A stretch of DNA of 64,000 bases. Source: Gammaproteobacteria bacterium. Its GTDB lineage: Bacteria > Pseudomonadota > Gammaproteobacteria > UBA4575. The DNA lies in assembly GCA_011523795.1 (NCBI GenBank), contig WTFY01000008.1, positions 72,955 through 136,954 on the forward strand, read 5' to 3'. The notes beneath the pieces were generated by a model that saw nothing but the letters and a program-made list of their open reading frames with translations, did no database searches and was not told the origin of the DNA. Below are positions 34,119 to 61,080 of this stretch, in pieces (positions within the stretch are counted from its first letter, which is position 1; every line of letters starts with the position of its first letter). The translations under genes were made by a program, and so were the position numbers.

Positions 34119-34120
34119 TT

Positions 34121-34140
34121 CAACATTTTTGAAAATGTTG
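34121..34140 (+). repeat. second inverted repeat just before urtB
   Basis: CAACATTTT and AAAATGTTG form a 9-bp stem with a 2-base loop. It ends five bases before the urtB ATG and starts two bases after the first hairpin, so it covers the place where a ribosome site is expected. The role is unknown. Confidence 0.55.
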
Positions 34141-34145
34141 AGACC

Positions 34146-38417: not shown

Positions 38418-38436
38418 GCAAATTTGGAGCAGAAAT

Positions 38437-38649: not shown

Positions 38650-39504
38650 ATGTCTGCAGCTGCAGAAAGACACCCCATGTATCCCCATGGCTGGGAGGCT
38701 CAACTGCGATTCGGGCTGACTCCGAAGCAGGGCAAGACAGTCGTTAGCAGGCAAAGACACCGGGGGCCGCTGACCATGCAGAAGCCGTTTCATCCTGAAT
38801 CCGATGGAACTTGCCATGCCTATATCCTCCACCCGCCAGGTGGAGTAGTGGGAGGAGATTCACTGGATATAGAATTGACATGTGATGCAGGAGCCCGTGC
38901 ACTCATCACGACCCCAGCGGCGAACAAGTTTTATCGGTCAAATGGCATGACTGCCACGCAAAGGCACGAACTCAGGGTACTGGGTACTGCCTGTCTGGAA
39001 TGGTTGCCTCAGGAAACCATATTGTTCGAGGGTACAAAGGTAAATTCCAGTACAAAAGTCTACCTGGAGGACCAAGCCAGTTTCATAGGGTGGGAAATTG
39101 TAAGTGTGGGACGCCCGGCATGTAACGAAGGATTTACCAGAGGCAGTTACCGGCAAAGCTTCGAGATTTGGAGGAGGTCTGAACCCCTAATGATTGATCG
39201 TATCAACCTGCAAGATTGTTCAGAAATTTTGAATGCGCAGTGGGGTCTTCGCCAAAGACCCGTCATGGGCCTGATGGTGGTCTCAGGTGACGAGGAGGTA
39301 CTGGAAAAAGCTCAGGACTCTGCACGTAACCTGGTTGAAAATCCAGGTTGTACCAGCGTTACCGTAACAGGTTCTGTCTTGTTGTGCCGCGCTCTCGACA
39401 CCAGTGCTATGGCTGTGCGGAATCTGTTCATTGATGTCTGGAAGGTTATTCGGCCTGTTGTGCTGGGGAAGTGGCCGTGCGAACCGAGAATCTGGGCAAC
39501 CTGA
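38650..39504 (+). CDS. ureD: urease accessory protein UreD (UreH)
   Basis: A 284-residue UreD-family scaffold protein that binds apo-urease and, with UreF and UreG, forms the complex through which nickel reaches the active site. Family features: LRFGLTPKQGKTVV, HPPGGVVGGDSLDIEL, TTPAANKFYRS and LEWLPQETILFEG. Start directly after the small ORF (TAGATG). The normal length is about 270-290. Confidence 0.93.
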   Translation: MSAAAERHPMYPHGWEAQLRFGLTPKQGKTVVSRQRHRGPLTMQKPFHPESDGTCHAYILHPPGGVVGGDSLDIELTCDAGARALITTPAANKFYRSNGMTATQRHELRVLGTACLEWLPQETILFEGTKVNSSTKVYLEDQASFIGWEIVSVGRPACNEGFTRGSYRQSFEIWRRSEPLMIDRINLQDCSEILNAQWGLRQRPVMGLMVVSGDEEVLEKAQDSARNLVENPGCTSVTVTGSVLLCRALDTSAMAVRNLFIDVWKVIRPVVLGKWPCEPRIWAT

Positions 39505-39525
39505 GTCTGATGCGAAGGAGCTGAC

Positions 39526-39828
39526 ATGGAGCTTTCACCCCGGGAAAAAGACAAGCTTTTGATTTTCGCAGCAGGCCTGCTTGCAGAAAAAAGAAAAGCC
39601 AAAGGCATCCGGCTCAATTATCCGGAGGCGGTCGCATACATTTCAGCGGCCATACTGGAGGCAGCAAGGGAAGGCAGGACCGTTGCAGAATGCATGGCCT
39701 ACGGGCGTACCCTGCTGACCACGGAAGATGTAATGGAAGGCATTGCAGATTTGGTGCATGAAGTTCAGGTGGAAGCCACTTTTCCAGACGGCACCAAGCT
39801 GGTTACCGTGCATAATCCGATTGTTTGA
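39526..39828 (+). CDS. ureA: urease subunit gamma
   Basis: A 100-residue gamma subunit: [23 protein letters not shown] start, [13 protein letters not shown], and [21 protein letters not shown]. It is the full family length. It overlaps nothing; ureB begins 17 bases later. Confidence 0.97.
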
Positions 39829-39845
39829 GTGTGGGAGGTTCCTTC

Positions 39846-40169
39846 GTGAAACCGGGTGAACTGATTGCAGCAGAAGGCGAAAGGGAACTCAACGAGGGCC
39901 GGGCTACCTGTACGGTGTCCGTTGCCAACACAGGAGACCGTCCCATTCAGGTGGGCTCACATTACCATTTTTATGAGACCAACCCTGCGCTTGAATTTGA
40001 TCGTGAGATGGCCCGGGGCAAACGCCTCGATATCCCTGCGGGTACTGCTGTCCGGTTTGAACCAGGGCAAAGCCGTACCGTAATCCTGGTTGACGTGGCG
40101 GGAACCAGAACCGTATACGGGTTCAATGCAAAAGTGATGGGTCCGCTGGATGGTCATGGCACGGAGTGA
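39846..40169 (+). CDS. ureB: urease subunit beta
   Basis: A 107-residue beta subunit. I start it at GTG 39846 ([11 protein letters not shown]), because GGGAGG at 39833-39838 is seven bases upstream and beta subunits start M-x-PGE. A TTG at 39825 would extend it but places the ribosome site inside the gene. Family features: [17 protein letters not shown] and [14 protein letters not shown]. Confidence 0.96.
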
Positions 40170-40174
40170 CAGGC

Positions 40175-41878
40175 ATGGCTAAGATCTCAAAACAGGCTTA
40201 CGCAGAGATGTACGGACCAACCGTAGGTGACCGGTTGAGACTTGCCGATACGGAGTTACTGATTGAGGCAGAGAAGGACTTTGCTGTGTACGGAGAAGAG
40301 GTGAAGTTCGGGGGCGGCAAGGTCATACGCGACGGGATGGGTCAAAGCCAGGTTTCCAGCAAGGAGGCCGTGGACACGGTCATTACCAATGCCCTGATTG
40401 TGGATTTCTGGGGAATCGTCAAGGCTGATGTGGGAATCAAGAATGGAAGGATTGCAGGTATCGGGAAAGCTGGAAATCCTGATGTGCAGCCGGGAGTCAG
40501 TATTCTGATCGGACCAGGTACCGAAGCCATTGCAGGGGAAGGCCTGATATTGACGGCGGGAGGTATTGATGCGCACATACATTTTATCTGTCCGCAACAG
40601 GTTGAAGATGCACTGATGTCCGGGATTACCACCATGATTGGCGGAGGGACAGGTCCAGCAACCGGCACCAATGCAACTACTTGCACGCCAGGTCCTTGGA
40701 ATATTCATCGTATGCTGGAGGCGGCTGACAGCTTGCCTATGAACCTGGGATTTTTGGGAAAAGGCAATGCCAGCTTGCCAGAGGCACTCAATGAACAGCT
40801 TGAAGCCGGCGCTATGGGGCTCAAGCTGCATGAAGACTGGGGCACGACACCGGCAGCCATAGACAACTGTCTGGATGTTGCTGAGACACATGACGTACAG
40901 GTGGCTATTCATACTGATACATTGAATGAGTCAGGTTTTGTCGAAGACACTATCGCAGCATTCAGGGACCGTGCAATTCACACCTACCATACGGAGGGTG
41001 CAGGGGGAGGACATGCACCGGATATCATTCGTGTGTGTGGATTGGCCAACGTTTTGCCATCCAGCACCAATCCTACTCGGCCTTACACGGTAAATACCAT
41101 TGATGAACACCTGGATATGTTGATGGTTTGTCATCATCTGGATCCGAAAATTCCTGAAGATGTTGCTTTTGCCGAGTCGCGTATACGGAAGGAAACTATC
41201 GCCGCAGAGGACATCCTGCATGATCTGGGCGCATTCAGCATGATTGCCTCGGATTCGCAGGCAATGGGGCGCGTGGGCGAAGTCATCACACGCACTTGGC
41301 AGACGGCAAACAAGATGAAAGTACAGCGTGGAGCGCTGAAGGAAGACAGTGACCACAATGATAATTTCAGGGTCCGGCGTTATATCGCCAAGTACACTAT
41401 CAATCCTGCCATAACACATGGTGTTGCAAACGAAGTGGGATCGGTTGAAGTTGGCAAACTGGCTGATCTGGTACTGTGGAAGCCGCCGTTTTTTGGTGTG
41501 AAGCCCTCACTTATCCTGAAAGGGGGGTTCATAGTTGCAGCACCAATGGGTGATCCGAATGCATCCATCCCGACACCGCAGCCTGTGCATTACCGGTACA
41601 TGTTTGGTGCCCAGCCCAAACCTACAGCCTCTACCTCGCTGACCTTTGTTTCGAAAGCAGCGCTGGATGCCGGTATCAAGGATCAGCTGCGGTTAGAAAA
41701 GAGGGTCGCCGCTGTCTCCCATACCCGTACGATCAGGAAAAAAGACCTGCTCTTGAACACTTACCAGCCTGATATGAAAGTGGACCCACAAACCTATGAA
41801 GTACGCGCTGATGGCAAATTGCTGACCTGTGAACCTGCAGTCTCCGTTCCATTGGCGCAAAGATACTTCTTGTTCTGA
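40175..41878 (+). CDS. ureC: urease subunit alpha
   Basis: A 567-residue catalytic subunit that hydrolyses urea to ammonia and carbamate using two nickel ions. Residue numbering matches Klebsiella urease exactly: nickel ligands His134, His136, His246, His272 and Asp360, the carbamylated Lys217 (GLKLHED), and the flap Cys319 and His320 (MVCHHL). Start ATG 40175 follows CGGAG by eight bases; GTG 40166 is in frame but lies before it. All catalytic residues are intact, so the enzyme should be active once loaded with nickel. Confidence 0.98.
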
Positions 41879-41885
41879 ATTTCTG

Positions 41886-42362
41886 ATGCTGTTGCTGACT
41901 GAACGTGTTGATTCTGGGTATCACCATAGTCACACGATGACTCTGGACTATGAACGACGCCAGAAAGCGAGGTTCAGGGCCAGATCCGACAGTGGTGAAG
42001 AAATGGGTGTCATGTTACCCAGGGGGTCGATATTGCGTGCAGGTGATTGTCTGCGAAGTGAAGACGGCACCGTGACTGTGAAAGTCATTGCCGCACTGCA
42101 AGAAGTATCGGTGGTACGAAGTCCTGACAGGCTGTTGCAGGAAAGGGCCTGTTATCACCTGGGTAACCGGCATGTGCCTTTGCAGATTGTCACGGACTGC
42201 CTTGTGTACCAGAGAGATCGTGTGCTGGATGAAATGGTGGAAAAACTGGGACTTACCGTTTCACATGAAATGCTTTCCTTTGAACCAGAACCAGGCGCTT
42301 ACCAGAATCATGTGCATTCATACGTCCCTGCCCAAGGCAAGAGCAGCAGAAATGCCAGATAA
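41886..42362 (+). CDS. ureE: urease accessory protein UreE (nickel chaperone)
   Basis: A 158-residue UreE with the N-terminal peptide-binding domain (MGVMLPRGSILRAGD) and the metal-binding domain (ACYHLGNRHVPLQ, with the conserved central His). The C-terminus lacks a His-rich tail; only HVHSY is present, so it would bind few nickel ions. Start at ATG 41886; a longer frame begins inside ureC. No good ribosome site, suggesting coupling to ureC. Confidence 0.93.
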   Translation: MLLLTERVDSGYHHSHTMTLDYERRQKARFRARSDSGEEMGVMLPRGSILRAGDCLRSEDGTVTVKVIAALQEVSVVRSPDRLLQERACYHLGNRHVPLQIVTDCLVYQRDRVLDEMVEKLGLTVSHEMLSFEPEPGAYQNHVHSYVPAQGKSSRNAR

Positions 42363-42375
42363 GGCATCAAATGGC

Positions 42376-43038
42376 ATGGCCAACCTGAACCTGATGCGCC
42401 TGACCAGCCCGTCACTGCCGATAGGTGCGTATGCCTATTCCCAGGGTCTCGAATTTGCCTGTGATCAGGGCTGGATACATGATCAGGTCAGTGCCCGGGA
42501 CTGGATTGGGGGACTGCTGCGAAATACGCAGGCCTGCCTCGATGTCCCTGTTTTGGGTCGGCTATTCGATGCCTGGAGCGTGTGTTCTACGGGGAAAGTG
42601 GAATACTGGAGTCGCTTTCTGCTTGCCTGCCGTGAATCCAGTGAACTGCGAAGCGAGGATCGCCATCTCGGAAATGCCTTGTTCAGGCTCCTTGCAGACC
42701 TAAAGATTTGGCAGGGAGAGGAAATCGTGAATGTGCCCTGGGCCACCTATGCTGCTGCATTCTCACTTGCGGCAGTGCAGTGGCATGTCAGCAAAACAGA
42801 TACGTGCATTGGGTATCTGTGGGCCTGGTGCGAAAATCAGGTAAATGCTGCCGTCAAACTTGTTCCGCTGGGCCAGACGGATGGTCAGCGTCTGGTATCG
42901 TCCCTGATCCATGAGGTCCCGACCTTGGTTCGAACAGGGCTGGAACTGGGAGACGATGATATAGCTGGCACTTCAGTCGGGCTTGGGATTGCCAGTGCAA
43001 ATCATGAACTACAGTATTCGAGATTATTCAGATCGTAG
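42376..43038 (+). CDS. ureF: urease accessory protein UreF
   Basis: A UreF-family protein that acts with UreD and UreG in nickel insertion. Family features: MRLTSPSLPIGAYAYSQGLE near the start, and SVGLGIASANHELQYSRLFRS at the end. I place the start at ATG 42376 (220 residues); ATG 42352 would overlap ureE and add eight residues. The much longer frame from 42088 lies within ureE. Confidence 0.93.
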   Translation: MANLNLMRLTSPSLPIGAYAYSQGLEFACDQGWIHDQVSARDWIGGLLRNTQACLDVPVLGRLFDAWSVCSTGKVEYWSRFLLACRESSELRSEDRHLGNALFRLLADLKIWQGEEIVNVPWATYAAAFSLAAVQWHVSKTDTCIGYLWAWCENQVNAAVKLVPLGQTDGQRLVSSLIHEVPTLVRTGLELGDDDIAGTSVGLGIASANHELQYSRLFRS

Positions 43039-43045
43039 GTGCTGA

Positions 43046-43666
43046 ATGCCGAGACAGATATTGAGAATAGGGGTAGGTGGGCCGGTTGGCTCGGGCAAAA
43101 CGGCATTATTGAATTCGTTGTGCACAGCCTTGCGTGACCGGTTTGAGATAGGTGTAGTAACCAACGACATCTATACTCGGGAAGATGCTGAGTTCCTGAT
43201 CCGGCATAAAGCTCTTCCTGAGGAGCGTATCAGAGGGGTTGAAACGGGGGGTTGTCCGCATACTGCCATCCGCGAGGATGCCTCAATCAATCTGGCTGCA
43301 GTACACGAGCTTTGCGAAGAGTTTCCTGAACTGGATTTCGTGCTGGTGGAAAGCGGTGGGGACAATTTGAGTGCTACCTTCAGCCCTGAACTTTCTGACC
43401 TGACGATATACGTGATTGATGTTGCTGCAGGAGACAAGATTCCACGCAAGGGAGGGCCAGGAATTACCAAGTCTGATCTGCTGGTAATTAACAAAACAGA
43501 CCTGGCACCCATGGTTGGTGCATCGCTTGAAGTCATGGAACGTGATGCGAAAAAAATGCGGGGTGACAGACCGTTTGTGTTTACCAACCTGAAGCGTCAG
43601 GAAGGGCTTGAAGAGATCATCCGGTTTATATGTTCAGAGGGGATGTTGAGTGAAGGTGACAGCTGA
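43046..43666 (+). CDS. ureG: urease accessory GTPase UreG
   Basis: A 206-residue SIMIBI GTPase that powers nickel insertion. P-loop [12 protein letters not shown], the nickel-binding CPH motif in [13 protein letters not shown], and the NKTDLAP guanine specificity motif. Full length. It is the last gene of the ure cluster; an imperfect inverted repeat (around 43671-43724, GTGAAGTC / GATTTCAC outer arms) follows before the convergent secreted-protein gene. Confidence 0.97.
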
Positions 43667-44542: not shown

Positions 44543-45244
44543 TCAGCCTCCCGCAGAGCTTTCCCTGTTTCCTCCAAAACGTGTGTACAGCAGCGCAGAA
44601 AGGATGCCAAGCACTATCCAGAATACTGCATTGGTAATCAGTGTCGCGGCAATGAATGCATTTCTCAGTTCATCAGGTGCCAACCCCCCGTGACGTTCAG
44701 GTTGAGGTGCTCCAAACAGGTGTGGCAAAACAAGCAAGGCTACCCCGATGAGTTTCAGGTAGCGGTTCGGCTGAAAGGCGATTATCCAGAAACCTGCAGC
44801 AGTCACAATCACGGTCAAGATCCACCATACCTGTCGCTGCCCAAGTCCAGCCGCAGCATCACCCGGTAGTTCAGGAGGCAGTCCCAGTGCGGGTGCAAGG
44901 TGGAACGCTGCAAACCCTGCGAGTCCCCAAAGGATGCCGTATTGCCAGGTAATTTTCTTGCGCATGGCATAACATGCCGTCAACAGCAGCCCGAAGCCAA
45001 TACCCACAAGCATGCTGTTGAACACTGTCCATAGGGTCCTTTCCAAACCGTCTTCAGGTCCCCATGCTTCCTCTTCATCTCCTGCTTCATGGGCGGTTTC
45101 CTCTCCTTCATCCCCACCCGATTCGTAGGTCTCCGCTTCGAGAATCATGGGGACCACAGAAAATTGCTGAATACTTCCAAGTACCAGTCCCGATAGCCCA
45201 CCGGCAATCAGGGCCGTCAGGAGTATCGTGTTAAAGGTCTTCAC
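44543..45244 (-). CDS. cbtA: CbtA-family predicted cobalt transporter subunit
   Basis: A 233-residue integral membrane protein with about five helices, plus an acidic/His segment (residues 44-66, rich in Glu and Asp) between helices 1 and 2. It belongs to the CbtA family, found with cobalamin genes or cobalt enzymes and predicted to take up Co2+. It lies eight bases after cbtB on the same strand. Here no cobalamin genes are nearby, but cobalt-dependent thiocyanate hydrolase is 6-8 kb away. Transport activity is inferred from the family. Confidence 0.88.
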   Translation of the reverse strand: MKTFNTILLTALIAGGLSGLVLGSIQQFSVVPMILEAETYESGGDEGEETAHEAGDEEEAWGPEDGLERTLWTVFNSMLVGIGFGLLLTACYAMRKKITWQYGILWGLAGFAAFHLAPALGLPPELPGDAAAGLGQRQVWWILTVIVTAAGFWIIAFQPNRYLKLIGVALLVLPHLFGAPQPERHGGLAPDELRNAFIAATLITNAVFWIVLGILSALLYTRFGGNRESSAGG

Positions 45245-45252
45245 GTTGGAAT

Positions 45253-45450
45253 TCAGTGGCAGGGGAAGGCAAGCGCATGCCGCAGGTCATGCGCTGCATT
45301 GTGAATTACTTCTGACCCAGCCAAACCCACTCCTGAAATGATCAGTGTTCCGATCAGAAGGGCTGCAGAGACTGCAAAAACAGTTGCTGATGGAAAAGCA
45401 CTTGCTTGACCTTGGTCGAGCAAGGATTTCGTGTTTTGTTCCGTATTCAT
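45253..45450 (-). CDS. cbtB: CbtB-family small cobalt transporter subunit
   Basis: A 65-residue single-helix protein. The tail HNAAHDLRHALAFPCH is the CbtB histidine signature, which probably binds metal at the cell surface. It heads the cbtB-cbtA pair. A second CbtB is found at 57248. No cobalamin riboswitch was recognised in the 330 bp upstream. Confidence 0.9.
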   Translation of the reverse strand: MNTEQNTKSLLDQGQASAFPSATVFAVSAALLIGTLIISGVGLAGSEVIHNAAHDLRHALAFPCH

Positions 45451-49230: not shown

Positions 49231-49494
49231 ATGAATACGTTGATTGATAAGTTGGTAGATGTAGTTACGGCAGGGAACAGGCCGTTTCGCATACTCCTGT
49301 TTGGAGGAATTTTCATGGGCTTGCTTATCATGAACCTTCTAGCAAGGCTTTTTGGTATAAAAACCGATATAGGAGGAGATGTGAACCTGGCCAATATTGT
49401 GTTGATCGTGATTTCCTTGCTCGCAGGTTTCGGGATCTCGTATTGCCTCGTGCATTTCGCAGACGCGAGCAAGCGAAGGCGCATGCAAAAATAA
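49231..49494 (+). CDS. small membrane protein, hypothetical
   Basis: An 87-residue protein with two predicted membrane helices (about 20-40 and 53-73) and a basic C-terminus (SKRRRMQK). CGAGGT precedes the ATG. No family recognised. It lies between the reductase and convergent cyn-side genes. Confidence 0.65.
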   Translation: MNTLIDKLVDVVTAGNRPFRILLFGGIFMGLLIMNLLARLFGIKTDIGGDVNLANIVLIVISLLAGFGISYCLVHFADASKRRRMQK

Positions 49495-49544: not shown

Positions 49545-49880
49545 CTAGGCTACGTTCCAGACCAATGCATAGCCTGACCTGTCCACATGGCCCTGGTTGT
49601 CAACAATGATGATTTCAGCCCCACATGACCGCACGGCCTGATTGAGAGGGCTGCTAAACACCAGCTTTCGAAACTGACTATATCCAGTGTGAGCGAATAT
49701 CGTGTTCTGGCACTGAAGGAAAGCGTGGAGGTCTGGCAATGAGAAACACCAGCGACCCGGTTCGATGCTGAAGTTCAAATCAAGTTCCAGTTTTTCCAGC
49801 ACATTCTGGTCTTTTCGAGCTGCCTGCTTGAAAAAAGAGACAAGCTCCCGCTGTGCGGCATCGTCAGCAATAGATTCCAC
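49545..49880 (-). CDS. hypothetical protein downstream of cynS
   Basis: 111 residues from a GTG start (codon at 49880). The codons just upstream remain open for about 10 residues and look coding, so the true start may be earlier, with the 5' part disrupted. No family recognised. Residues 1-30 are helical and charged; the rest mixes strands (EIIIVDNQGHVDRSG). It lies 92 bp after the cynS stop on the same strand, so it may be in the cyn transcript. Confidence 0.55.
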   Translation of the reverse strand: MESIADDAAQRELVSFFKQAARKDQNVLEKLELDLNFSIEPGRWCFSLPDLHAFLQCQNTIFAHTGYSQFRKLVFSSPLNQAVRSCGAEIIIVDNQGHVDRSGYALVWNVA

Positions 49881-49972: not shown

Positions 49973-50413
49973 TCACCACGCACTGTATTTCAGGAATTTG
50001 CCATTCAAGGTAAGGATGACTCGGTCACCTTTGGGGTTTTCCTCCTTGTCGATGTCCATGGAGAAATCAATCGCACTCATGATTCCGTCACCGAATTTTT
50101 CGTGAATGATTTCCTTGATCGTGTATCCGTACACACCAACAATTTCGTACAGCCGGTAAATCACGGGGTCTTGCGGGATCGTCTTTTCCCATGACTTGCA
50201 CGGGAACTCCTGCAGTGCTGCACAGACGTTTTCGTCCAGCTCGAGCACCTCACACAGGCTTTTTGCTATATTTTCCGGCATGCTGTTCATTCCGAAACAG
50301 GCAGAGGCCACCCACGTTTCACCCATGCCTACCTTGCTGGCAATAGCCTCCCAGGTTAATCCTTTCGCCTTTTTTGATGAGATGATCAAATCAGTCATTT
50401 CTTCTTTAGTCAT
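49973..50413 (-). CDS. cynS: cyanate hydratase (cyanase)
   Basis: A 146-residue cyanase that reacts cyanate with bicarbonate to give ammonia and CO2 via carbamate. The catalytic residues are intact: Arg87 and Glu90 in YRLYE and Ser113 in GDGIMSAIDF (Arg96, Glu99, Ser122 in E. coli). The N-terminal half is the helix-turn-helix-like decamer domain. GGAG lies upstream of the ATG. A sigma-54-type promoter and NtrC-like sites are upstream. Cyanate may come from the outside or from partial oxidation of thiocyanate; the thiocyanate hydrolase operon faces away 1.8 kb off. Confidence 0.96.
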   Translation of the reverse strand: MTKEEMTDLIISSKKAKGLTWEAIASKVGMGETWVASACFGMNSMPENIAKSLCEVLELDENVCAALQEFPCKSWEKTIPQDPVIYRLYEIVGVYGYTIKEIIHEKFGDGIMSAIDFSMDIDKEENPKGDRVILTLNGKFLKYSAW

Positions 50414-50449
50414 TCCTTTTCTCCAAAACTAGCTATACAAGAGTATCTT

Positions 50450-50465
50450 AGCAAAAAGCAGGCCA
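50450..50465 (-). promoter_or_regulatory. sigma-54-type promoter for cynS
   Basis: Read on the minus strand: TGGCCTG-CTTT-TTGCT, with GG-N10-GC spacing and only one mismatch to TGGCAYR-N4-TTGCW. The predicted transcript starts about 25-30 bp before the cynS ATG at 50413. Confidence 0.72.
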
Positions 50466-50537
50466 ACTCCTGTTTTGGCCTATACAAGCGGATAAGGGTC
50501 GATCCGGAGTAGGTGGAATTCGGCAAGGAACTGGTGA

Positions 50538-50564
50538 TGCACTATTTTGGTGCGCCAATGCACC
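50538..50564. promoter_or_regulatory. NtrC-type enhancer with three phased half-sites
   Basis: TGCAC-TATTTT-GGTGC (50538-50553) is a near-perfect NtrC dyad. The GGTGC then shares a second dyad with GCACC at 50560-50564 (N6 spacer). The half-sites are thus spaced 11 bp, one helical turn. They lie 73-114 bp upstream of the cynS sigma-54-type promoter. Confidence 0.7.
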
Positions 50565-50644
50565 TCTGTTGACGACATCCAAATCAGGCAGGTCATGCAT
50601 ACCCAGCCGTGAGAAAGCGCACAAATGCAGAGCAAGTATGAAAA

Positions 50645-51577
50645 TTACAGCATTTGTTTTTCATGGAGCATGCGTGAAGACCAATCCGATGCCAATTCAA
50701 GAAACGCTGTGCATGCAGGGCTCTTGTAGCCGCCCTTGTTCCAGACCAGGCTGACGGTATGGTGGGGAAGTTCTGGTACCACTTCTATAGGATTTAGCCC
50801 GGGTTGTGTATTGATAATTGTGTTGGGCAGTACCGTCGCGAGCATGCCGAGTTCTACCATTTCGATGATTACGGTGAGGGAATTGGTTTCGATTGCGATG
50901 TGCGGTTCAATGCTATGGTCATGGCAGTATCGATCAATATGATGACGCAATGCGAAGTCTGAATTGAGCTGTACCAGTGATTCCTTTGCAAATTCCTGCA
51001 AGCTCATCCGTCTCTTGCGGTTGACAAGGGGATGGTCTTTGCCAACCGCCAGGTACAGTGCCTCTTCAAACAGTGTGAATGTTTCAGTGGGACCTGATAG
51101 ATCTTCTGGGCCGGCGGGCTTGCTGAATGTGATGCCAATATCAATCCGGGCTTCTGATATTGCAGACTCGATGTCATCTTGGGGCATGTCGAGGGTGCTC
51201 AGGGTGATGCCAGGATACCGGCTGTTGTAATGAGCCAGCAAGGAACAGGTCAGGTAGTCTGTAATTGGCGTCCATCCCAGCCGCAGAGAACCTCGAGACA
51301 GATTTTTAATATCATGAATTGCCCGGGTACCCGCATTCAGTTCTCCCCAGGCACGCCGCGCATGACGCACGTAGATTTTTCCAGCGTCTGTGAGCTTTAC
51401 TGTTCGTCCGGACCTGTCCAGTAGGGGAGATTTGAGATAGTCCTCCAGCTGCTTGATTTGCTGCGATAAGGTGGGTTGAGAGACATGTAAAGTTTCCGCA
51501 GCTCGTGTATAACTCCCATGTTCTGCGATCGCAATTAGATACTGTAGAGAGCGTGGGAAAATATCCCTACGGTCCAT
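50645..51577 (-). CDS. LysR-type transcriptional regulator, CynR-like
   Basis: A 310-residue LysR protein. The winged helix-turn-helix (about residues 8-65) carries SLQYLIAIAEHGSYTRAAET and LHVSQPTLSQQIKQLED; the periplasmic-binding-like effector domain follows. It most resembles the CynR/CysB-like group, on similarity and on its place between cynS and the scn operon. Start ATG 51577 has AGGAG seven bases before. Its start codon lies within a perfect T-N11-A dyad. The effector could be cyanate or thiocyanate; this is inference. Confidence 0.88.
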   Translation of the reverse strand: MDRRDIFPRSLQYLIAIAEHGSYTRAAETLHVSQPTLSQQIKQLEDYLKSPLLDRSGRTVKLTDAGKIYVRHARRAWGELNAGTRAIHDIKNLSRGSLRLGWTPITDYLTCSLLAHYNSRYPGITLSTLDMPQDDIESAISEARIDIGITFSKPAGPEDLSGPTETFTLFEEALYLAVGKDHPLVNRKRRMSLQEFAKESLVQLNSDFALRHHIDRYCHDHSIEPHIAIETNSLTVIIEMVELGMLATVLPNTIINTQPGLNPIEVVPELPHHTVSLVWNKGGYKSPACTAFLELASDWSSRMLHEKQML

Positions 51578-51592
51578 AGTTAACTCCTATGG
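51574..51592. promoter_or_regulatory. LysR-type box overlapping the regulator's start
   Basis: CCATAG-N7-CTATGG is a perfect 6+6 dyad containing ATAG-N7-CTAT, i.e. the T-N11-A LysR box. It covers the start codon of the LysR gene and lies 170 bp before scnB. A partial copy of its core (TAACTCCT at 51581-51588) recurs at 51626-51633. This suits autorepression and divergent control of scn. Confidence 0.6.
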
Positions 51593-51759
51593 GTTTAATA
51601 AATATAAAGTCTTGGATTAATAACATAACTCCTTTAGACTGTCATTATTAAATATGTACGCCCTATAAAATAAGTAAATAAGAAGATACTAAGATACTTT
51701 GATTTCACGGGTTGCAAAACAACTAATTTGCTAATCAATTTAAGGAGGAATCTAAGGTT

Positions 51760-52191
51760 ATGTCATCCGATACCAGACAGAGAGTCTTGCGGCATATTGA
51801 CCTTGTGGGCCAACTGCAACCGGCCTTACATCAGCCGCAGCATGCACCGCTTCCCACCGAGGTTGACAATGCCCATTTCAGGGCTTACATGCGTACGTCG
51901 CATGATGTGGGTGGCGAACCTGATGTATCCATTCGGTGGCATGAAAAAGAAGAAGAGCAGTGGGAGCTGAATACATACGTGACCTGCGAATGCCTGGCAT
52001 GGCGTGGCGTCTGGAACGCCGAAGAAAGGCGCCGTCGGCAGAATGTTGATCTTGGACAGACACAGTACTTGGGTCTGCCATATTATGGGCGTTGGTTACT
52101 GTCAGCGGCCAGGATCATGGTCGACAAGCAGCACATCACTCTCACAGAATTAATCAACAAGATTGATGAGGTCAAAAAGCGCTATGAGTAG
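51760..52191 (+). CDS. scnB: thiocyanate hydrolase beta subunit
   Basis: A 143-residue protein matching the N-terminal domain of nitrile hydratase beta, which in thiocyanate hydrolase is a separate subunit (beta, ScnB; 157 in Thiobacillus thioparus). Typical stretch: NAHFRAYMRTSHDVGGEPDV. The start follows AGGAGG (51743-51748). Gene order B-A-C is that of T. thioparus. It forms the enzyme with ScnA and ScnC, hydrolysing SCN- to carbonyl sulfide and ammonia. It overlaps scnA by 8 bp. Confidence 0.92.
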   Translation: MSSDTRQRVLRHIDLVGQLQPALHQPQHAPLPTEVDNAHFRAYMRTSHDVGGEPDVSIRWHEKEEEQWELNTYVTCECLAWRGVWNAEERRRRQNVDLGQTQYLGLPYYGRWLLSAARIMVDKQHITLTELINKIDEVKKRYE

Positions 52192-52537
52192 AGGTCATCA
52201 TGCCGAAAAGGCTACGGGGAAAGGCGACCCCCAGTGTTTTGCAGGTGAGGCTGGAGAGCCAAAATTCAAGGTCGGTGACCGGGTTCGGATTCGTGATTTG
52301 CCGGATGTTTTCTACACCAGGTGCCAAGTATATACCCGGGGAGCGGAAGGTGTAGTAACTGTTGTGACACACGAGAGTCCTGCTCCGGAAGACGAGGCTT
52401 GGGATAACGTTGATGATCCCGAGTGGTTTTACATTGTGCGTTTCAAGCAGAAGGACCTCTGGCCTGAGTATCCTGATGCCTATGCTAACGACACATTGCA
52501 GACTGAGTTTTCCGAGCGCTGGCTCGAGCCTGTATAA
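52184..52537 (+). CDS. scnA: thiocyanate hydrolase alpha subunit
   Basis: A 117-residue protein equal to the C-terminal SH3-like domain of nitrile hydratase beta (FKVGDRVRIRDLPDVFYTR, GAEGVVTVV, ERWLEPV). In SCNase this is the alpha subunit (126 in T. thioparus). ATG 52184 is preferred (MSRGHHAEKATG), overlapping the scnB stop; a TTG at 52163 is in frame. The split of one beta-type chain into ScnB and ScnA distinguishes SCNase from nitrile hydratase. Confidence 0.92.
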   Translation: MSRGHHAEKATGKGDPQCFAGEAGEPKFKVGDRVRIRDLPDVFYTRCQVYTRGAEGVVTVVTHESPAPEDEAWDNVDDPEWFYIVRFKQKDLWPEYPDAYANDTLQTEFSERWLEPV

Positions 52538-52601
52538 GACGACCAACGCGGTTCAACGTATAACAGAGAACAGAATACAGAGGATTAAAGAGGACAAGAT
52601 T

Positions 52602-53294
52602 ATGGCTCAAGATCATAAAGCTGCACCTATGGTGGATGAGGTCAGCGAATTCGAAGTGCTGGAAATTGCCGTTCGTGAACTAGCGATCGAAAAAGGTCTT
52701 TTCAGTGCAGAAGACCATCGGCGTTTCGCGGAGTTTGCGCACAGTATAGGACCATTGCCGGCTGCACGGCTGGTGGCCAAGGCTTGGCTGGACCCAGAGT
52801 TCAAGAAGCTTGCACTTGAAGATGGTTTCACTGCGAGCAAGGAAGTGGGCATTGACTGGCTGAATCCAACAGGATTTGGAACACCCAGTGATTACTGTGA
52901 CCTGCGTGTCCTGGAAAATACGCCTTCGTTGCATAACGTGGTGGTATGTACACTGTGTTCGTGCTACCCGCGGCCAATTTTGGGACACTCTCCCGAGTGG
53001 TACCGTACGCCAAACTATCGTCGCAGACTGGTTCGGTGGCCTAGGCAGGTACTGGCCGAATTTGGTTTGCAGATTCCTGCTGATGTTGAGATCAGGGTCG
53101 AAGACTCGAACCAGAAATGCAGGTTTATGGTCATGCCTATGCGGCCTGAAGGTACGGAAGACTGGACTGAGGATCAGCTTACGGAAATTGTGACTCGTGA
53201 CTGCATGCTTGGGGTGGCACTGCCACATCCTGACCGTAAGGGGGATGACAGGCGACCGGTACACAAGGCAGCTAACCCGGTACACGGGCACTAG
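52602..53294 (+). CDS. scnC: thiocyanate hydrolase gamma subunit (cobalt site)
   Basis: A 230-residue catalytic subunit homologous to nitrile hydratase alpha. The metal claw CTLCSC is at Cys116, Cys119, Ser120 and Cys121; in SCNase, Cys119 and Cys121 equivalents are oxidised to sulfinic and sulfenic acids. The Thr in CTLCSC is the cobalt-type signature. Also family-typical: NTPSLHNVVV before it and YRRRLVRWPRQVL after. ATG 52602 has GAGGA upstream. The alternative, cobalt nitrile hydratase, is disfavoured by the separate ScnA and ScnB chains. Confidence 0.94.
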   Translation: MAQDHKAAPMVDEVSEFEVLEIAVRELAIEKGLFSAEDHRRFAEFAHSIGPLPAARLVAKAWLDPEFKKLALEDGFTASKEVGIDWLNPTGFGTPSDYCDLRVLENTPSLHNVVVCTLCSCYPRPILGHSPEWYRTPNYRRRLVRWPRQVLAEFGLQIPADVEIRVEDSNQKCRFMVMPMRPEGTEDWTEDQLTEIVTRDCMLGVALPHPDRKGDDRRPVHKAANPVHGH

Positions 53295-53300
53295 GCGAAC

Positions 53301-53684
53301 ATGACGACCTTGAGGAAAAACAATCCTGAAGCCGAAGTCCCGAATTCTGAATTTTCGCCGATTTCGCTTCTGGAGAAGGTTCGAGAACAGGGCAGGGTGT
53401 GGGAAGACCTTGCCAAGCAGTATGGTGTAGATAACGCAGACCCACCCTGGAAGATCAATCTGGACTCAACATGTGAAGCACTTGCTGCTGAGCAGTGTAC
53501 GTTGCCTGTGCTGGAACGGCGCAATGAAGAAGATGTGCTTTCCGAAACACTTTACAAGGACGTACCGTACCCGGAACGCCAACTCCTGGCGCTTGTACAT
53601 TCAATGATACAACGTGGACTGATTGATGAAGAGGAGCTTGCTGCGCGTATGAAATTTATCGACAAACGCCTGAATAGCGCTTGA
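53301..53684 (+). CDS. thiocyanate hydrolase activator (P15K-like)
   Basis: A 127-residue protein seven bases after scnC. It resembles P15K of T. thioparus and nitrile hydratase activators (which help insert cobalt and oxidise the claw cysteines): W-rich PPWKINLDSTCEALAAEQ and PYPERQLLALVHSMIQRG. Its place and length match P15K (about 15 kDa). The chaperone role is from the literature on that protein. Confidence 0.85.
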   Translation: MTTLRKNNPEAEVPNSEFSPISLLEKVREQGRVWEDLAKQYGVDNADPPWKINLDSTCEALAAEQCTLPVLERRNEEDVLSETLYKDVPYPERQLLALVHSMIQRGLIDEEELAARMKFIDKRLNSA

Positions 53685-53753
53685 TACTCTCGACAGTACC
53701 TGTTTTGAGTGTTGAATTGGGAGCAGTGAAGCAAACACGAATTAAGGAGTAAT

Positions 53754-54116
53754 ATGGCCAAGATATTTATGAAGTCTTCATGGGGCAGTGATGATCCGAC
53801 CCGCGCTGCCATGGTATTTGGGCATGCCAATGCACTGGCGAGCAAAGGTCATGAAGTACGAATCTTTTTACTCGGAGAAGCGGTATGCTTGGCACGGCCT
53901 GTTGTACGTGAAAACATGATTCCGCTTGGATGGCCGTCTGTTGCCGAACAATGGGATGAAGCGATTGGAAATGGAGTCCGGATTGAGTGCTGCGGAGCGT
54001 GTTCGAGAGCCCGTGGAATCAGTGAAGAGGACATGGCGAAAGCCAGGGCGCAGCCAGGCAATCCTGATACGTTTGTGGAAGACGTAGAGTGGTCGGACAA
54101 GATCATTGCAGAATGA
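53754..54116 (+). CDS. DsrE/DsrF-like protein in the scn operon
   Basis: A 120-residue DsrE-family protein: KIFMKSSWGSDDPTRAAMVFGHANAL start and the conserved cysteine region CCGACSRARGI. Family members carry or relay sulfur (DsrE, TusD) or bind small ligands. AAGGAG precedes the ATG. Within a thiocyanate operon it could relate to the sulfur released (carbonyl sulfide or sulfide), but this is a guess. It is short, with no partner DsrF or DsrH. Confidence 0.82.
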   Translation: MAKIFMKSSWGSDDPTRAAMVFGHANALASKGHEVRIFLLGEAVCLARPVVRENMIPLGWPSVAEQWDEAIGNGVRIECCGACSRARGISEEDMAKARAQPGNPDTFVEDVEWSDKIIAE

Positions 54117-54177
54117 CCCGTTGAAAATGCATTGGACCATTTTGACTGTGCCCGGAAAACAGTATAGAGGCTAAAGG

Positions 54178-55002
54178 ATGGAAAACCGCAGCGGTGTTCA
54201 AATCAGCATCAAGGATCTTACTCATCGGTATACGGCAAGAAGCCCCATTACCTTTGACAAGGTTAACGTCTCTGCAGACCCAGGTGAGGCACTGGTTATC
54301 ATTGGACGGTCCGGATGCGGCAAATCTACGCTTCTCCATATTCTTGCCGGGTTGCTGGATAAGACATCTGGCACTGTGCAGATTGACGGTAAAGATGTCA
54401 CGGCTCCTTCATCTAGGTGGATCATGATGTTTCAGGCACCGCATCTTTTTCCTTGGATGACGGTTGAGCAGAATGTTGGCACAGGCTTGCGATTTGCCCG
54501 ATGGCCTGAGGACAAGATCAAAAACCGGGTAAATGAGGTGATTGGTCTGGTACATCTTGAAGAATTTGCCCGAAATAACACACAGGATCTTTCCGGCGGA
54601 CAGCAGCAACGTGTAGCTCTTGCGCGCTCTTTGGTCATGGAGCCGGATATGCTGCTCCTGGATGAGCCCTTTTCTGCGCTGGATGCCTTTACACGTGCAA
54701 CCTTGCAGAAGGATGTCAGGGCCATCTCAAAGCAACTAGGTGTTAACCTGGTGATGGTTACCCACGACATTGATGAGGCAGTAATCATGGCTGATCGCGC
54801 ACTGGTTATGGCTGGCTCACCCGGCAAAATTGTTCATGACTTCAAAGTAGACCTTGACGACCCGCGCGAAAGACAGGACCCTACTGTTCAGGAAATGCGC
54901 GCAAGACTGATGCAGATATTCCATGAAGCAGCCGGCACACCGGCTGCTTCTGATGATGAGGACAGTGATGCCGCAACCGAGGCCGAGTTGGTTGGCAACT
55001 GA
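54178..55002 (+). CDS. ABC transporter ATPase, NrtD/SsuB/CynD-like
   Basis: A 274-residue ABC ATPase of the nitrate/sulfonate/taurine/cyanate group. Walker A GRSGCGKSTLLHI, signature LSGGQQQRVALARSL, Walker B MLLLDEPFSALDAFTR, H-switch VMVTHDIDEAV. An acidic C-terminal tail (DDEDSDAATEAE) is unusual. It heads the three transporter genes in the scn operon, suggesting thiocyanate or cyanate import. In cyanobacteria, CynABD transports cyanate next to cynS. Confidence 0.88.
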   Translation: MENRSGVQISIKDLTHRYTARSPITFDKVNVSADPGEALVIIGRSGCGKSTLLHILAGLLDKTSGTVQIDGKDVTAPSSRWIMMFQAPHLFPWMTVEQNVGTGLRFARWPEDKIKNRVNEVIGLVHLEEFARNNTQDLSGGQQQRVALARSLVMEPDMLLLDEPFSALDAFTRATLQKDVRAISKQLGVNLVMVTHDIDEAVIMADRALVMAGSPGKIVHDFKVDLDDPRERQDPTVQEMRARLMQIFHEAAGTPAASDDEDSDAATEAELVGN

Positions 55003-55065
55003 ATTGGCCTGAAAGTGCACTTCAGGCTTTGTAATGATGAGAGTAATGATGAGGGGAATTCCGAC

Positions 55066-56361
55066 ATGAAGAAAATTTATGAAAAACATGGCGACGGGAT
55101 ACAGAATGATGATCCCAGGCTCGCCATTGAATATGACCCCCTGTTCAAGGGGGTACTCGGTACCGGTATCAACCGGCGCGAATTGCTTCAGGTAGGAGGC
55201 TTAGCTGCCTTGGGAGGAGGCGCAAGTGCCTTACCCATGCCTACCTTTGCAGCCAAGAAAAAATGGGATCCAGTAATCAAGATTGGCTATATTCCTATCA
55301 CTGACGCAGCTGCTTTGCTGATTGCCCATGATCAGGGATATTTCAAGGATGAGGGTATCGACTCTGTGAAGCCAACCCTTATACGTGGGTGGTCTCCACT
55401 CGTTGAGGCATTCGCAGCACACCGGTTTAACCTTACACATATGTTGATTCCGATACCAGTCTGGATGCGCTATAACAATAAGTATCCTATCAAGATCACA
55501 GCTTGGGACCACACCAATGGTTCTGCCGTGCTGGTTGGTAAGAAGAGTGGTATCAATGAGCCCAAGGATTTTGGAGGCAAGCAGTTCGCCGTACCTTACT
55601 GGTATTCGATCCACAACATTGTGTCGCAGCGGATCATGAAGGCTGCAGGCATCAAGCCGGTGATCAAGCCACAGTCTGCCAAGCTGGCTCCGGATGAGTG
55701 CAACTTCCTAGTGCTGGCACCACCGTCCATGCCACCTGCCTTGGCTGCGGGTACGATAGACGGCTATTGCGTAGCCGAACCGTTTAATGCGCTGGGTGAA
55801 CTCAAGGCAGGAGGAAAGGTCCTGCGCTTTACAGGTGATGCCTGGAAAGGGCACCCCTGCTGCGTGGTGGTCATGCATGAAGAAGATGCAATGGACCCTG
55901 ACCGTGCAGCTTGGGCACAGGGAGTCCATAATGCAGTAGTCAGAGCGCAGATTCTTCTTGCAGAAAACAGGGAGTCGATGTCTGAAATTCTGTCTCGTGA
56001 TGGCAAGGGCTATTTGCCCGTCCCGAAAGAAGTCGTGAAGCGGGCCATGATGTTCTATGATCCTGCATACTACAAGAATCCGCCTGCAATCAAGCATCCG
56101 GAATGGGATCAGAACCGGATCGATTTTCAGGCATGGCCGTACAGGTCCGCTACCGAGTTGGTAGTGAGTGACCTGAAAGAAACAGTCGTTACAGGGGATG
56201 CGAGATTCCTGGATACGCTCACACCTGAGCATGTAGCGAACGACCTCGTCAATTATGACTTTGTGAAAACTGCTTTGGAGGCTAATCCGAAGTGGAGGAA
56301 TGACGCAAGTGTTCCCAAGGAAGGTGACCCGTACATTCGTTCGGAGGTGTTCGTACTTTGA
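55066..56361 (+). CDS. ABC transporter substrate-binding protein, NrtA/CynA-like, Tat-exported
   Basis: A 431-residue binding protein of the NrtA/TauA class. The N-terminal 65 residues hold a twin-arginine signal (NRREL at 36-40, with a following hydrophobic run GGLAALGGGASALP), so export through Tat as a folded protein is predicted. The mature protein starts like NrtA: IKIGYIPITDAAALLIAHDQG. Starts at ATG 55066 after GAGGGG; the frame extends upstream but not convincingly. The ligand is probably a linear pseudohalide anion, from position only. Confidence 0.85.
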   Translation: MKKIYEKHGDGIQNDDPRLAIEYDPLFKGVLGTGINRRELLQVGGLAALGGGASALPMPTFAAKKKWDPVIKIGYIPITDAAALLIAHDQGYFKDEGIDSVKPTLIRGWSPLVEAFAAHRFNLTHMLIPIPVWMRYNNKYPIKITAWDHTNGSAVLVGKKSGINEPKDFGGKQFAVPYWYSIHNIVSQRIMKAAGIKPVIKPQSAKLAPDECNFLVLAPPSMPPALAAGTIDGYCVAEPFNALGELKAGGKVLRFTGDAWKGHPCCVVVMHEEDAMDPDRAAWAQGVHNAVVRAQILLAENRESMSEILSRDGKGYLPVPKEVVKRAMMFYDPAYYKNPPAIKHPEWDQNRIDFQAWPYRSATELVVSDLKETVVTGDARFLDTLTPEHVANDLVNYDFVKTALEANPKWRNDASVPKEGDPYIRSEVFVL

Positions 56362-57206
56362 GTAACGGGAAAGCTGATGTAGCCAATACCGATACAACTG
56401 CTGCATCGTCACAGGCTGTCAAAAGTACAGCGGCTACTGCAAAATCTGTAGGAAAAAGCCTGTTCAACTGGGCGGCTGGCCTTGCAATCCTGTTAGTGCT
56501 TTGGTGGTTTGGTGGTTATCTAATTGAGATCAACCCTGCTACAACAAACTTCAAGGACTTTGGGCCGATACCTACGTTCAAGGCAATCCCGTATCTGCTG
56601 GAGGCAGGTAAGATCCAGGCCGCTGTCTTTACCAGTGGTTATCGTCTGGGTGCAGGTTTGCTCATTGCTATTGTCTGCGGGATCCCCATAGGGATCCTGC
56701 TCGGACGCAGCAAGGTCTTCCGTGAGTTGAGCAATTCACCATTTCAGTTGATCCGTATGATCAGTCCTCTCTCTTGGGAGCCTATCGCGGTAATTGTGTT
56801 TGCGACATGGAACGGGGCCATTATCTTCCTGATAGCTGTTGCGGCAGTTTGGCCAGTAGTGTTTGCTACTGCAGCGGGGTTGGCCAAGGTAGATCCTGCT
56901 TGGTTCAAGGTTGCTCGCAACCTTGGTGCCAAGCCCTGGCATATGGTAACGCAGATCATTCTGCCAGCCATCCTGTTCGATATTCTTACAGGAGTCAGGT
57001 TGGCTCTGGGTGTGGGCTGGATTGTGCTGGTACCTGCTGAATTTCTCGGGGTTACATCAGGCCTGGGCTACTCCATTGCTGATGCCAGGGAGACGCTTTC
57101 CTATGACCATCTCACTGCGATGGTGCTTACTATCGGGATTATGGGTTACATACTTGACAGTTCCTGTGCGATGCTGATCAAGCGTTACAGTTGGCATCAC
57201 TCGTGA
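56358..57206 (+). CDS. ABC transporter permease, NrtB/TauC-like
   Basis: A 282-residue permease with about six helices and the EAA loop LGAKPWHMVTQIILPAI. A polar, Ala/Thr-rich N-terminal tail of about 35 residues precedes the first helix. It starts at a TTG (56358) overlapping the binding-protein stop, with GGAGG ten bases upstream. It completes the importer with the two genes before it. Confidence 0.88.
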   Translation: MSNGKADVANTDTTAASSQAVKSTAATAKSVGKSLFNWAAGLAILLVLWWFGGYLIEINPATTNFKDFGPIPTFKAIPYLLEAGKIQAAVFTSGYRLGAGLLIAIVCGIPIGILLGRSKVFRELSNSPFQLIRMISPLSWEPIAVIVFATWNGAIIFLIAVAAVWPVVFATAAGLAKVDPAWFKVARNLGAKPWHMVTQIILPAILFDILTGVRLALGVGWIVLVPAEFLGVTSGLGYSIADARETLSYDHLTAMVLTIGIMGYILDSSCAMLIKRYSWHHS

Positions 57207-57247
57207 AGGGCAATTTAAAATTTATAAATGTATGAGGAGTTATAACT

Positions 57248-57439
57248 ATGCAATATCAGACAGTCACCAGCGTCAAACAGCATGATGTTACGGTTTCAAA
57301 GGCCGCTCGGCCTTTACAGATCGCTGCCGCATTTCTGTTGGGTGCGATCATCATGTATGGTGTCGGATTCATGAATTCAGCTGCGGTGCACAATGCAGCT
57401 CATGACGTTCGCCATTCACAGGCATTCCCTTGCCACTAA
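57248..57439 (+). CDS. cbtB: second CbtB-family small protein, last gene of the scn operon
   Basis: A 63-residue single-helix protein with the same signature tail (VHNAAHDVRHSQAFPCH) as the CbtB at 45253. It has its own ribosome site (GAGGAG) and no CbtA next to it. It may supply cobalt to the hydrolase with the CbtA encoded 12 kb away, or act alone. Confidence 0.85.
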   Translation: MQYQTVTSVKQHDVTVSKAARPLQIAAAFLLGAIIMYGVGFMNSAAVHNAAHDVRHSQAFPCH

Positions 57440-58558: not shown

Positions 58559-59902
58559 ATGTGCGGATCGAAATACAGTACTAGCGATTGTTCACTTCGA
58601 TCGCATATAGAAATTGATAAACGCTACGACACAATAAGCAGGCGATGTGTCAAAGGCTTTGCGCTATCGTCATTGATTGCACTATTCACCCAGTTTTTTT
58701 ACCTGTCGCCAGTGTATGCATTAAATTTGCGTGAAGTTGAACAAATTACGAAACAACAAGATTTTATTTCTCAAGCACGTCAATTTCGAGGTGATGCTTT
58801 AGGTGAATCTGCAATCGCGGATGCACAACTTCCGGATCCACAATTAAACCTTGGGCTGTTCAACTTACCGACAGATGATTTTGATATTAATAGTGAGCCC
58901 AATACCCAATTACGATTTGGAGTATCGCAATCTTTTCCACGTGGTAAAACACTTGCTTTTAAAGAAAAGCAAACAAAATGGGCAAGTGATGCAGAATATC
59001 AACGTGCATCCGACGAGGTTCTAAAATCAATTCAATCGGCACGTGAACATTTCTTCAACCTTTACTATCAGATCAGTGCGCAAGAAATTCTTGAAGAAAG
59101 TCGTCAATATTTTGTACAGCTTATAGATATTGCAAACTCTTATTACAAAGTTGGGCGTGTTAATCAGCAAGATATATTACGAGCGCAACTTGAGCTATCA
59201 AGATTGGATGATCGTGTCATCGAGCTTAAAACCAAGGAAGACTTAGCAAGGGCAGCGCTGAGCAAATGGCTAGATGAAAGAGCATTTGAGCCAGTAGAAA
59301 AAGACTATCCGACTCTCCCACCACTGATCCCACAACAGGAAATAATTGATTCGTTAACCAATCATCAGTCTATTCAAGCAGAAGATGCCATGGTTTCGTT
59401 CTTTAATGCAGGTGTTGAAATTGCGCACGAACAATACAAACCAGGGTGGAACATCAATGTTGAGTATCGAAAACGCTTTGGTGACAACATAGACGGGACC
59501 AACCGTGAGGACCAGGTAGCTGCCATGGTAAAAGTAGACCTGCCTATTTTCACCAACAAACGCCAAGATCGGCGTTTAGCTGCCAGTCAACATCAAGTTT
59601 CAGCAGCAAAACTAGTTCGAAGCGATAAGCTGCAATCACTTAGACAAGCAGTTCACAGGGACTATGCAAATTGGGAACGACTGTCTGAAAGAAGCGAGCT
59701 TTATGAAACAAGGCTAGTTCCTGAAGCAAATGCGAATGCACGCGCTGCTTTAACAGCATACCAAAGTGGGGTAACAGAATTTACAACGCTTGCACAAGCA
59801 CGTATTACTCAGTTGAATGTGCGCTTGGAAGCTTTGCACACGAAAACGGAACGTAGCCGCATACATTCACGCCTTCTATATTTTGCTGAAGGAACATTGT
59901 GA
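58559..59902 (+). CDS. cusC: TolC-family outer-membrane efflux protein of a CusCBA-type system
   Basis: A 447-residue OEP-family protein. A long cytoplasmic-looking stretch (residues 1-30) precedes the hydrophobic signal (33-54, ALSSLIALFTQFF), so the signal peptide is atypical. The mature part has the helical repeat structure of TolC proteins (LNLREVEQITKQQDFISQA; YYKVGRVNQQDILRAQLELSRL; ALTAYQSGVTEFTTLAQAR). The start has AAGGAG. It overlaps the next gene. DNA is AT-richer than most of the window, indicating a different origin. The metal is likely Cu/Ag, inferred from the downstream pump. Confidence 0.85.
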   Translation: MCGSKYSTSDCSLRSHIEIDKRYDTISRRCVKGFALSSLIALFTQFFYLSPVYALNLREVEQITKQQDFISQARQFRGDALGESAIADAQLPDPQLNLGLFNLPTDDFDINSEPNTQLRFGVSQSFPRGKTLAFKEKQTKWASDAEYQRASDEVLKSIQSAREHFFNLYYQISAQEILEESRQYFVQLIDIANSYYKVGRVNQQDILRAQLELSRLDDRVIELKTKEDLARAALSKWLDERAFEPVEKDYPTLPPLIPQQEIIDSLTNHQSIQAEDAMVSFFNAGVEIAHEQYKPGWNINVEYRKRFGDNIDGTNREDQVAAMVKVDLPIFTNKRQDRRLAASQHQVSAAKLVRSDKLQSLRQAVHRDYANWERLSERSELYETRLVPEANANARAALTAYQSGVTEFTTLAQARITQLNVRLEALHTKTERSRIHSRLLYFAEGTL

Positions 59903-61080
59903 TGATTAATGAATTTAATCTTTCACTCGTCTTTTTTTTAGGCTTATTTTTGACAACAGTCAACAGCACAACTCTGGCCGATGAAGAAGATCGTGAAGTT
60001 TTGTATTGGGTTGCCCCTATGGATCCTAATTATAAAAAAGATAAACCAGGAAAATCGCCCATGGGAATGGATCTGGTACCTGTTTATAAAGATGAACAGC
60101 AAGAAACAGGCAGTGAAGTCGTTATCGCGCCTCAAGTTGTACAGAATTTGGGGGTTCGTACTGCAACAGTGGAGCGGTCTAAACTGTGGAGAAGAGTGAG
60201 CACTGTAGGTTTTGTGGATTATGATGAATCCAAGCTAAGCCATATTCATTTACGCACACAAGGATGGATAGAAAGTTTGACTGTGCAGTCAGAAGGAGAC
60301 CGTGTTCAAAAGGGCCAACTTCTTTTCAAGCTCTACTCACCTGAACTTGTTAATGCGCAAGAGGAATATCTTCAAGCACTCACGATAGGAAATACAACAT
60401 TAATCAATGCATCCAAACAACGCTTATTTGCATTAGGTGTCCCTTCTACAGAAATAAAACGTCTCAATAGAGAACGTATCGCCCGACAGACTATTTCGTA
60501 TTACGCACCCCAAGATGGTGTTGTGTCCTCACTTAACGTTAGAGACGGCATGTTTGTGAAACCTGAAAATCAAATTGCTACGCTCGCAGACCTTTCTACG
60601 GTATGGGTGACGGCCGAAATATTTGAGAGACAAAGTGGTTGGGTTGAAGTTGGACAGCCTGCAGAAGTGCGATTCTCATACTTGCCCGGGGAGAAATTTA
60701 AAGGACAAGTCGAATATGTTTATCCCAACCTAGACCAGATGACTAGAGCGCTCACCGTTCGTTTGAAATTTGATAATCCGGGTGAAACATTAAAGCCAAA
60801 CATGTTTGGCGATGTGTATATCTTTTCGGGAGCAAAAGAAAACATCATTGTCGTACCACGTGAATCAGTCATCCGTACAGGCACTAGCGAACGTGTCATC
60901 CTTGCAAAAGGAGAGGGGCGATTCGAACCCCGTGAAGTTATTACCGGAATCGAGAGTGGTGATTGGATTGAAATTCAAAGTGGTCTGAATGAAGGCGAAG
61001 ATGTCGTTATTTCAGGTCAGTTTCTCATCGACTCTGAGGCCAGCACTAAAGCTAGTTTTGCCCGAATGACTGGCCAATAA
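59902..61080 (+). CDS. cusB: CusB-like periplasmic adaptor with heavy-metal-binding domain
   Basis: A 392-residue membrane fusion protein. A signal or anchor helix at the start is followed by a heavy-metal-binding domain (about 35-65) with the YWVAPMDPNYKKDKPGKS and MGMDLVPVY motifs, then lipoyl, beta-barrel and membrane-proximal domains. Start ATG 59902 overlaps the cusC stop (TGATG); GTG 59899 is also possible. It links the inner-membrane pump to the outer-membrane channel and presents metal to it. Confidence 0.9.
   Translation: MINEFNLSLVFFLGLFLTTVNSTTLADEEDREVLYWVAPMDPNYKKDKPGKSPMGMDLVPVYKDEQQETGSEVVIAPQVVQNLGVRTATVERSKLWRRVSTVGFVDYDESKLSHIHLRTQGWIESLTVQSEGDRVQKGQLLFKLYSPELVNAQEEYLQALTIGNTTLINASKQRLFALGVPSTEIKRLNRERIARQTISYYAPQDGVVSSLNVRDGMFVKPENQIATLADLSTVWVTAEIFERQSGWVEVGQPAEVRFSYLPGEKFKGQVEYVYPNLDQMTRALTVRLKFDNPGETLKPNMFGDVYIFSGAKENIIVVPRESVIRTGTSERVILAKGEGRFEPREVITGIESGDWIEIQSGLNEGEDVVISGQFLIDSEASTKASFARMTGQ

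Follow-up and report, generated by a model that had tools for sequence, protein, structure and literature searches.

Thiocyanate hydrolase yields carbonyl sulfide (COS) and ammonia (PMC5328954; PMC6504805). In Thiobacillus thioparus, whose enzyme has a solved structure (2DD4), the scnABC genes are clustered with an importer, a DsrE/F protein, a cyanase and a cobalt-transport gene (Berben et al. 2017, PMC5328954). The scn cluster of Thioalkalivibrio thiocyanodenitrificans is similarly arranged; it has a cobalt uptake system of its own, which differs from the one described below, and no cyanase directly before scn (PMC5328954). Both thiocyanate and cyanate have been proposed as ammonium sources in the lucinid symbiont Candidatus Thiodiazotropha (PMC11171427). 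The thiocyanate dehydrogenase cluster of Thioalkalivibrio (PMC5744179) also serves thiocyanate use and has ABC subunits alongside, but it encodes a periplasmic copper enzyme of the cyanate pathway and, unlike the locus studied here, has no scn genes.

The window, the 64,000-nucleotide stretch of gammaproteobacterial DNA that was analysed, carries the following features.

44543-45244, minus strand: cbtA, cobalt transporter subunit and partner of both cbtB genes, GTG start (PF09490, 8.4e-53 over window 44585-45235)
45253-45450, minus strand: second cbtB, directly upstream of cbtA (from sequence; matched by sister-locus cbtB homologues)
49973-50413, minus strand: cynS, cyanase (NF002773, 1.5e-61, and TIGR00673, 5.8e-52, above the NCBIfam cut-offs)
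50645-51577, minus strand: cynR-type LysR regulator (NF008416 CynR, 358 bits, cut-off 277)
51578-51759, no strand: putative shared divergent promoter region (alignment of five species)
51760-52191, plus strand: scnB, thiocyanate hydrolase beta subunit (2dd4_B, 3.2e-65, residues 1-141)
52184-52537, plus strand: scnA, thiocyanate hydrolase alpha subunit (2dd4_A, 2.2e-48)
52602-53294, plus strand: scnC, catalytic gamma subunit (TIGR03887, 398.8 bits, cut-off 291; 2dd4_C, 3.1e-116)
53301-53684, plus strand: P15K-type activator, nitrile hydratase beta N-terminal-like (PF21006, E 7.6e-4, slightly below cut-off)
53754-54116, plus strand: DsrE-like protein with a CGAC motif (PF02635, 5e-14)
54178-55002, plus strand: ABC importer ATPase, NitT/TauT type (NCBIfam nitrate/taurine/sulfonate type ATPases)
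55066-56361, plus strand: substrate-binding protein (PF13379, 6.8e-37; twin-arginine leader NRRELLQVGG)
56358-57206, plus strand: ABC importer permease (matches SaoP, NtrB and TauC type permeases)
57248-57439, plus strand: cbtB within the operon (PF09489, 3.4e-21)

Each gene named in the initial annotation (scnBAC, P15K, the DsrE-like gene, the importer, cbtB, the LysR gene and cynS) has a family or structure match. The genes from scnB to cbtB lie on one strand with short gaps, as had been described (-8, 64, 6, 69, 61, 63, -4 and 41 nt in the sequence), and probably form a single-transcript operon. The LysR gene and cynS had been said to face the scn genes; on the minus strand, they are in fact divergent from scnBAC on the plus strand.

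The locus resembles that of T. thioparus DSM 505 in its scn genes, the small protein encoded next to them, a NitT/TauT-type ABC importer, a DsrE/F protein, a cyanase and a cobalt-transport gene nearby. That similar gene groups occur in thiocyanate oxidisers, as first noted, agrees with the cluster already published for sulfur bacteria (PMC5328954). The two loci differ in that a different DsrE lies here between P15K and the ATPase, and in that the cobalt genes here are CbtB/CbtA. Symbionts of Candidatus Thiodiazotropha (L035; PMC11171427) share scnBAC, P15K, the importer and cynR; they carry DsrE/F, TusA and SQR genes downstream and lack the window-type DsrE.

We surveyed the best 80 scn matches of one scan with one genome per species, nearly all of them from Pseudomonadota, plus one Mycobacterium. 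Of the 77 loci in which this could be tested, 75 have P15K no more than 1 kb from scnC, and the binding protein is just downstream in 64 of 70. Where at least 7 kb of upstream sequence was available, cynR is upstream in 55 of 58 loci and cynS in 44 of 58; in 38 of the best 80, cynR is divergent and the immediate upstream neighbour of scnB. P15K, the importer and cynR are common at these loci; cbtB is present in 20 of 80 and an intact window-type DsrE in 8 of 80. The same core is found in T. thioparus DSM 505, Thiohalophilus thiocyanatoxydans, Thiocapsa roseopersicina, Halochromatium roseum and Candidatus Thiodiazotropha endolucinida. Closer to the window, scnC is present in all five sampled genomes of the genus and in four genomes from two other genera of the family, and the gene order is the same in four sister species. 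Given this recurrence across the best 80 loci, the module is conserved and a chance grouping is excluded. In Mycobacterium fragae (L108), scnBAC and P15K (gamma identity 73%) point to an apparent transfer outside Pseudomonadota; the importer and cynR were not found at that locus.

Nitrogen acquisition and energy metabolism

In this lineage, the scn cluster probably serves mainly nitrogen acquisition, as suggested by the precedent of the lucinid symbionts (PMC11171427), by the urea and ammonium genes nearby, and by two absences. The RuBisCO large subunit was not found in the genome, in a draft of 97% completeness in which genes may be missed. In T. thioparus, the COS hydrolase that has been characterised is a member of the beta-carbonic anhydrase family. 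No protein of this kind was found in any of the five genomes of the genus, and one is present in eight other members of the taxonomic family; the missing beta-carbonic-anhydrase-type COS hydrolase is compatible with another enzyme, which may take its place.

The main alternative is that thiocyanate is primarily an electron donor and that COS sulfur passes to SQR, TusA and rDsr as in Thiobacillus. The genome does encode dsrA, as part of an extended series of dsr-like genes read from open reading frames, and in 60 of the best 80 scn loci the importer is followed by genes for DsrE/F, TusA and an SQR-type protein. In T. thioparus DSM 505 these three genes likewise come after the importer. Here, they have no match in the window, where the 3' side of the scn cluster is not of the Thiobacillus type, and they lie on another contig (C11; DsrE/F 46%, TusA 64% and SQR 68% identical to L035). 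The SQR gene is retained by family members without detected scnC (for example G044 and G185), which indicates that the set and scn are not coupled in this family. Together with the RuBisCO and COS hydrolase results and a neighbourhood with genes for ammonium transport, urea import and urease, this makes a chiefly energetic role rather unlikely.

The urea genes (urtA-E, and ure genes with ureC among them) form an island at window 32698-43666, some 6 kb upstream of the cyanase gene. Urease is also near scn in the sister species G370 and was not seen in stretches from two genomes of another genus. A match to the 5' ureB sRNA in Rfam (110.8 bits; window 40324-40610, minus strand) lies antisense to the start of ureC. 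It may be no more than a sign of conserved urease coding sequence. Just downstream of the operon are TolC-like and CusB-like efflux genes (window 58559-61080), also found in L034.

The importer, cyanase and CynR

The importer lies downstream of the scn genes, as in clusters of the Thiobacillus type. Its ATPase has a Walker A motif (GRSGCGKST) and the signature LSGGQQQR, and the twin-arginine leader of the binding protein fits the claim that it is Tat-exported. Four of the best 80 scn loci (L051, L054, L081 and L092) have no importer and instead carry a gene of the formate/nitrite transporter (FNT) family (PF01226), which was found in none of the others; the copies in L051, L054 and L081 are 77-85% identical to that in L092. 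This replacement of the importer by an anion channel family, which appears to be new, gives indirect support for anion import. On the basis of co-occurrence and of this replacement, we infer that the NitT/TauT-type importer carries thiocyanate.

Another explanation is that the importer and CynR work in cyanate supply to the cyanase, and that thiocyanate enters another way. The regulator is of the CynR type, and relatives of the binding protein adjoin cynS in 3 of 10 genomes without detected scnC, which suggests that cyanate may be a substrate instead of, or besides, thiocyanate. However, the scn-type binding protein is kept in loci where no cynS was found within 10 kb (for example L035, L041, L046 and L066). 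In addition, a tree groups the binding proteins linked to scn in a clade of 65 rows (support 95/95), apart from the relatives in genomes without detected scnC; long branches among some of the outer rows leave the exact sister order unsure. Given these observations and the exchange for an FNT gene at four scn loci, an importer devoted to cyanate is improbable, and thiocyanate remains our preferred substrate.

The initial annotation had linked the cyanase to the hydrolase in a complete route from uptake to ammonium. This does not hold: because ScnABC would make COS and not cyanate, on which cyanase acts, the cyanase is off the route. In an alignment of five species of the genus, the roughly 55 bp closest to cynR hardly vary, consistent with a shared divergent operator. 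Scans of promoters and terminators gave counts below the shuffled expectation. Beside cynS are two small conserved genes (window 49231-49494, plus strand, and 49545-49880, minus strand) with no Pfam match; they recur in the scn loci L031-L034, L057, L061, L066 and L106.

The DsrE-like gene

The DsrE-like protein encoded between P15K and the ATPase has an invariant CGAC motif and a predicted DsrE fold (AlphaFold, mean pLDDT 85.7). Its best Foldseek matches (2qs7, YchN 1jx7 and DsrEFH 2hy5) place it in the DsrE/DsrF family. An intact gene of this type is limited, among the best 80 scn loci, to the eight of four sister species, three loci apparently of the same family (L057, L061 and L079) and L092, a betaproteobacterial bin with a copy of 64% identity. 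With so few intact copies, and with matches in other genomes of the class just 30-33% identical, we rejected the idea that it is a general partner of scn. The idea that the two DsrE types strictly exclude each other is also weakened by L042, which has the DsrE/F-TusA-SQR set and, in the slot between its P15K and ATPase genes, a short, disrupted relic of the window-type gene (L042:4106-4290).

The initial annotation considered the coupling to DsrE and to an orphan CbtB to be less documented. A DsrE/F gene and a cobalt-transport gene had already been described beside scnABC (PMC5328954), and CbtA is encoded nearby; what stands is that the DsrE found here is another protein than the published one and sits elsewhere in the cluster. 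This lineage-specific swap seems to be new. Our best guess is that it is a putative cytoplasmic thiol or persulfide carrier tied to the operon. A more specific role, as a dedicated partner of the hydrolase that receives its sulfur or aids in processing it, or that assists oxidation of the gamma cysteines during cobalt maturation, such that neither a linked DsrE/F-TusA-SQR set nor a COS hydrolase of the beta-carbonic anhydrase type is needed, is improbable.

The hydrolase module and its cobalt supply

ScnB, ScnA and ScnC each align over nearly their full length with the corresponding 2DD4 chain (B, A and C), and the alpha, beta and gamma subunits are thus encoded by three separate homologous genes, as in EC 3.5.5.8. 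The metal motif of ScnC (C116-T-L-C119-S-C121) aligns with positions 128, 131 and 133 of the 2DD4 chain, and this cobalt-binding CTLCSC motif is invariant in 14 sequences. A P15K-type gene is directly 3' of scnC, as at thiocyanate hydrolase loci, and its product is 59% identical to that of the gene following scnC in T. thioparus DSM 505. Nitrile hydratase and thiocyanate hydrolase share a superfamily, but a mis-named ordinary cobalt nitrile hydratase can be dismissed, since alpha and beta are encoded by separate genes and the gamma protein scores above the thiocyanate hydrolase cut-off and below that of nitrile hydratase (NCBIfam) and is 75% identical to the gamma subunit of T. thioparus DSM 505.

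The operon cbtB is no orphan, as a cbtB-cbtA pair was found on the minus strand about 4.5 kb beyond cynS (44543-45450; cbtA profile match at G000:C9:117539-118189 in the contig scan), the nearby CbtA being typical of CbtAB systems. Of the 20 loci with cbtB among the best 80, 19 also have cbtA, and in eight loci (L041, L042, L046, L059, L060, L064, L066 and L106) the permease gene is followed by cbtB, cbtA and a second cbtB. Control by a cobalamin riboswitch often accompanies CbtAB genes and is not strictly defining; for cbtB, no Rfam match to such a riboswitch was found in the window. A literature search pairing thiocyanate hydrolase with CbtB gave no match. In a related genus (L061:20-4606), the open reading frames next to cbtBA include the apparent end of a TonB-dependent receptor, ExbB/ExbD-like genes and a TonB-like gene.

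Homology, synteny and co-occurrence support the prediction of a hydrolase with its activator, importer and cobalt-transport component. We estimate a probability of about 0.82 that the locus is a canonical cobalt thiocyanate hydrolase module, for import, hydrolysis to COS and ammonia, cobalt supply and, probably, nitrogen gain. Thiocyanate would enter through the NitT/TauT-type ABC importer and, judging by orthology to the characterised enzyme, would be hydrolysed by ScnABC to COS and ammonia. P15K would aid cobalt uptake by the gamma subunit, and CbtB/CbtA would provide the metal. CynR probably controls the divergent promoter, and the cyanase would be a companion enzyme for cyanate rather than a step after ScnABC.

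The cluster is real and intact, and most of it has been described before; one gene swap is specific to this lineage. The exchange of importer and FNT gene at four scn loci offers a simple test of thiocyanate entry, a step that has so far been assumed. More broadly, a gene set of autotrophic sulfur oxidisers also occurs in a lineage for which no RuBisCO was detected, and its likelier use there is to supply nitrogen.
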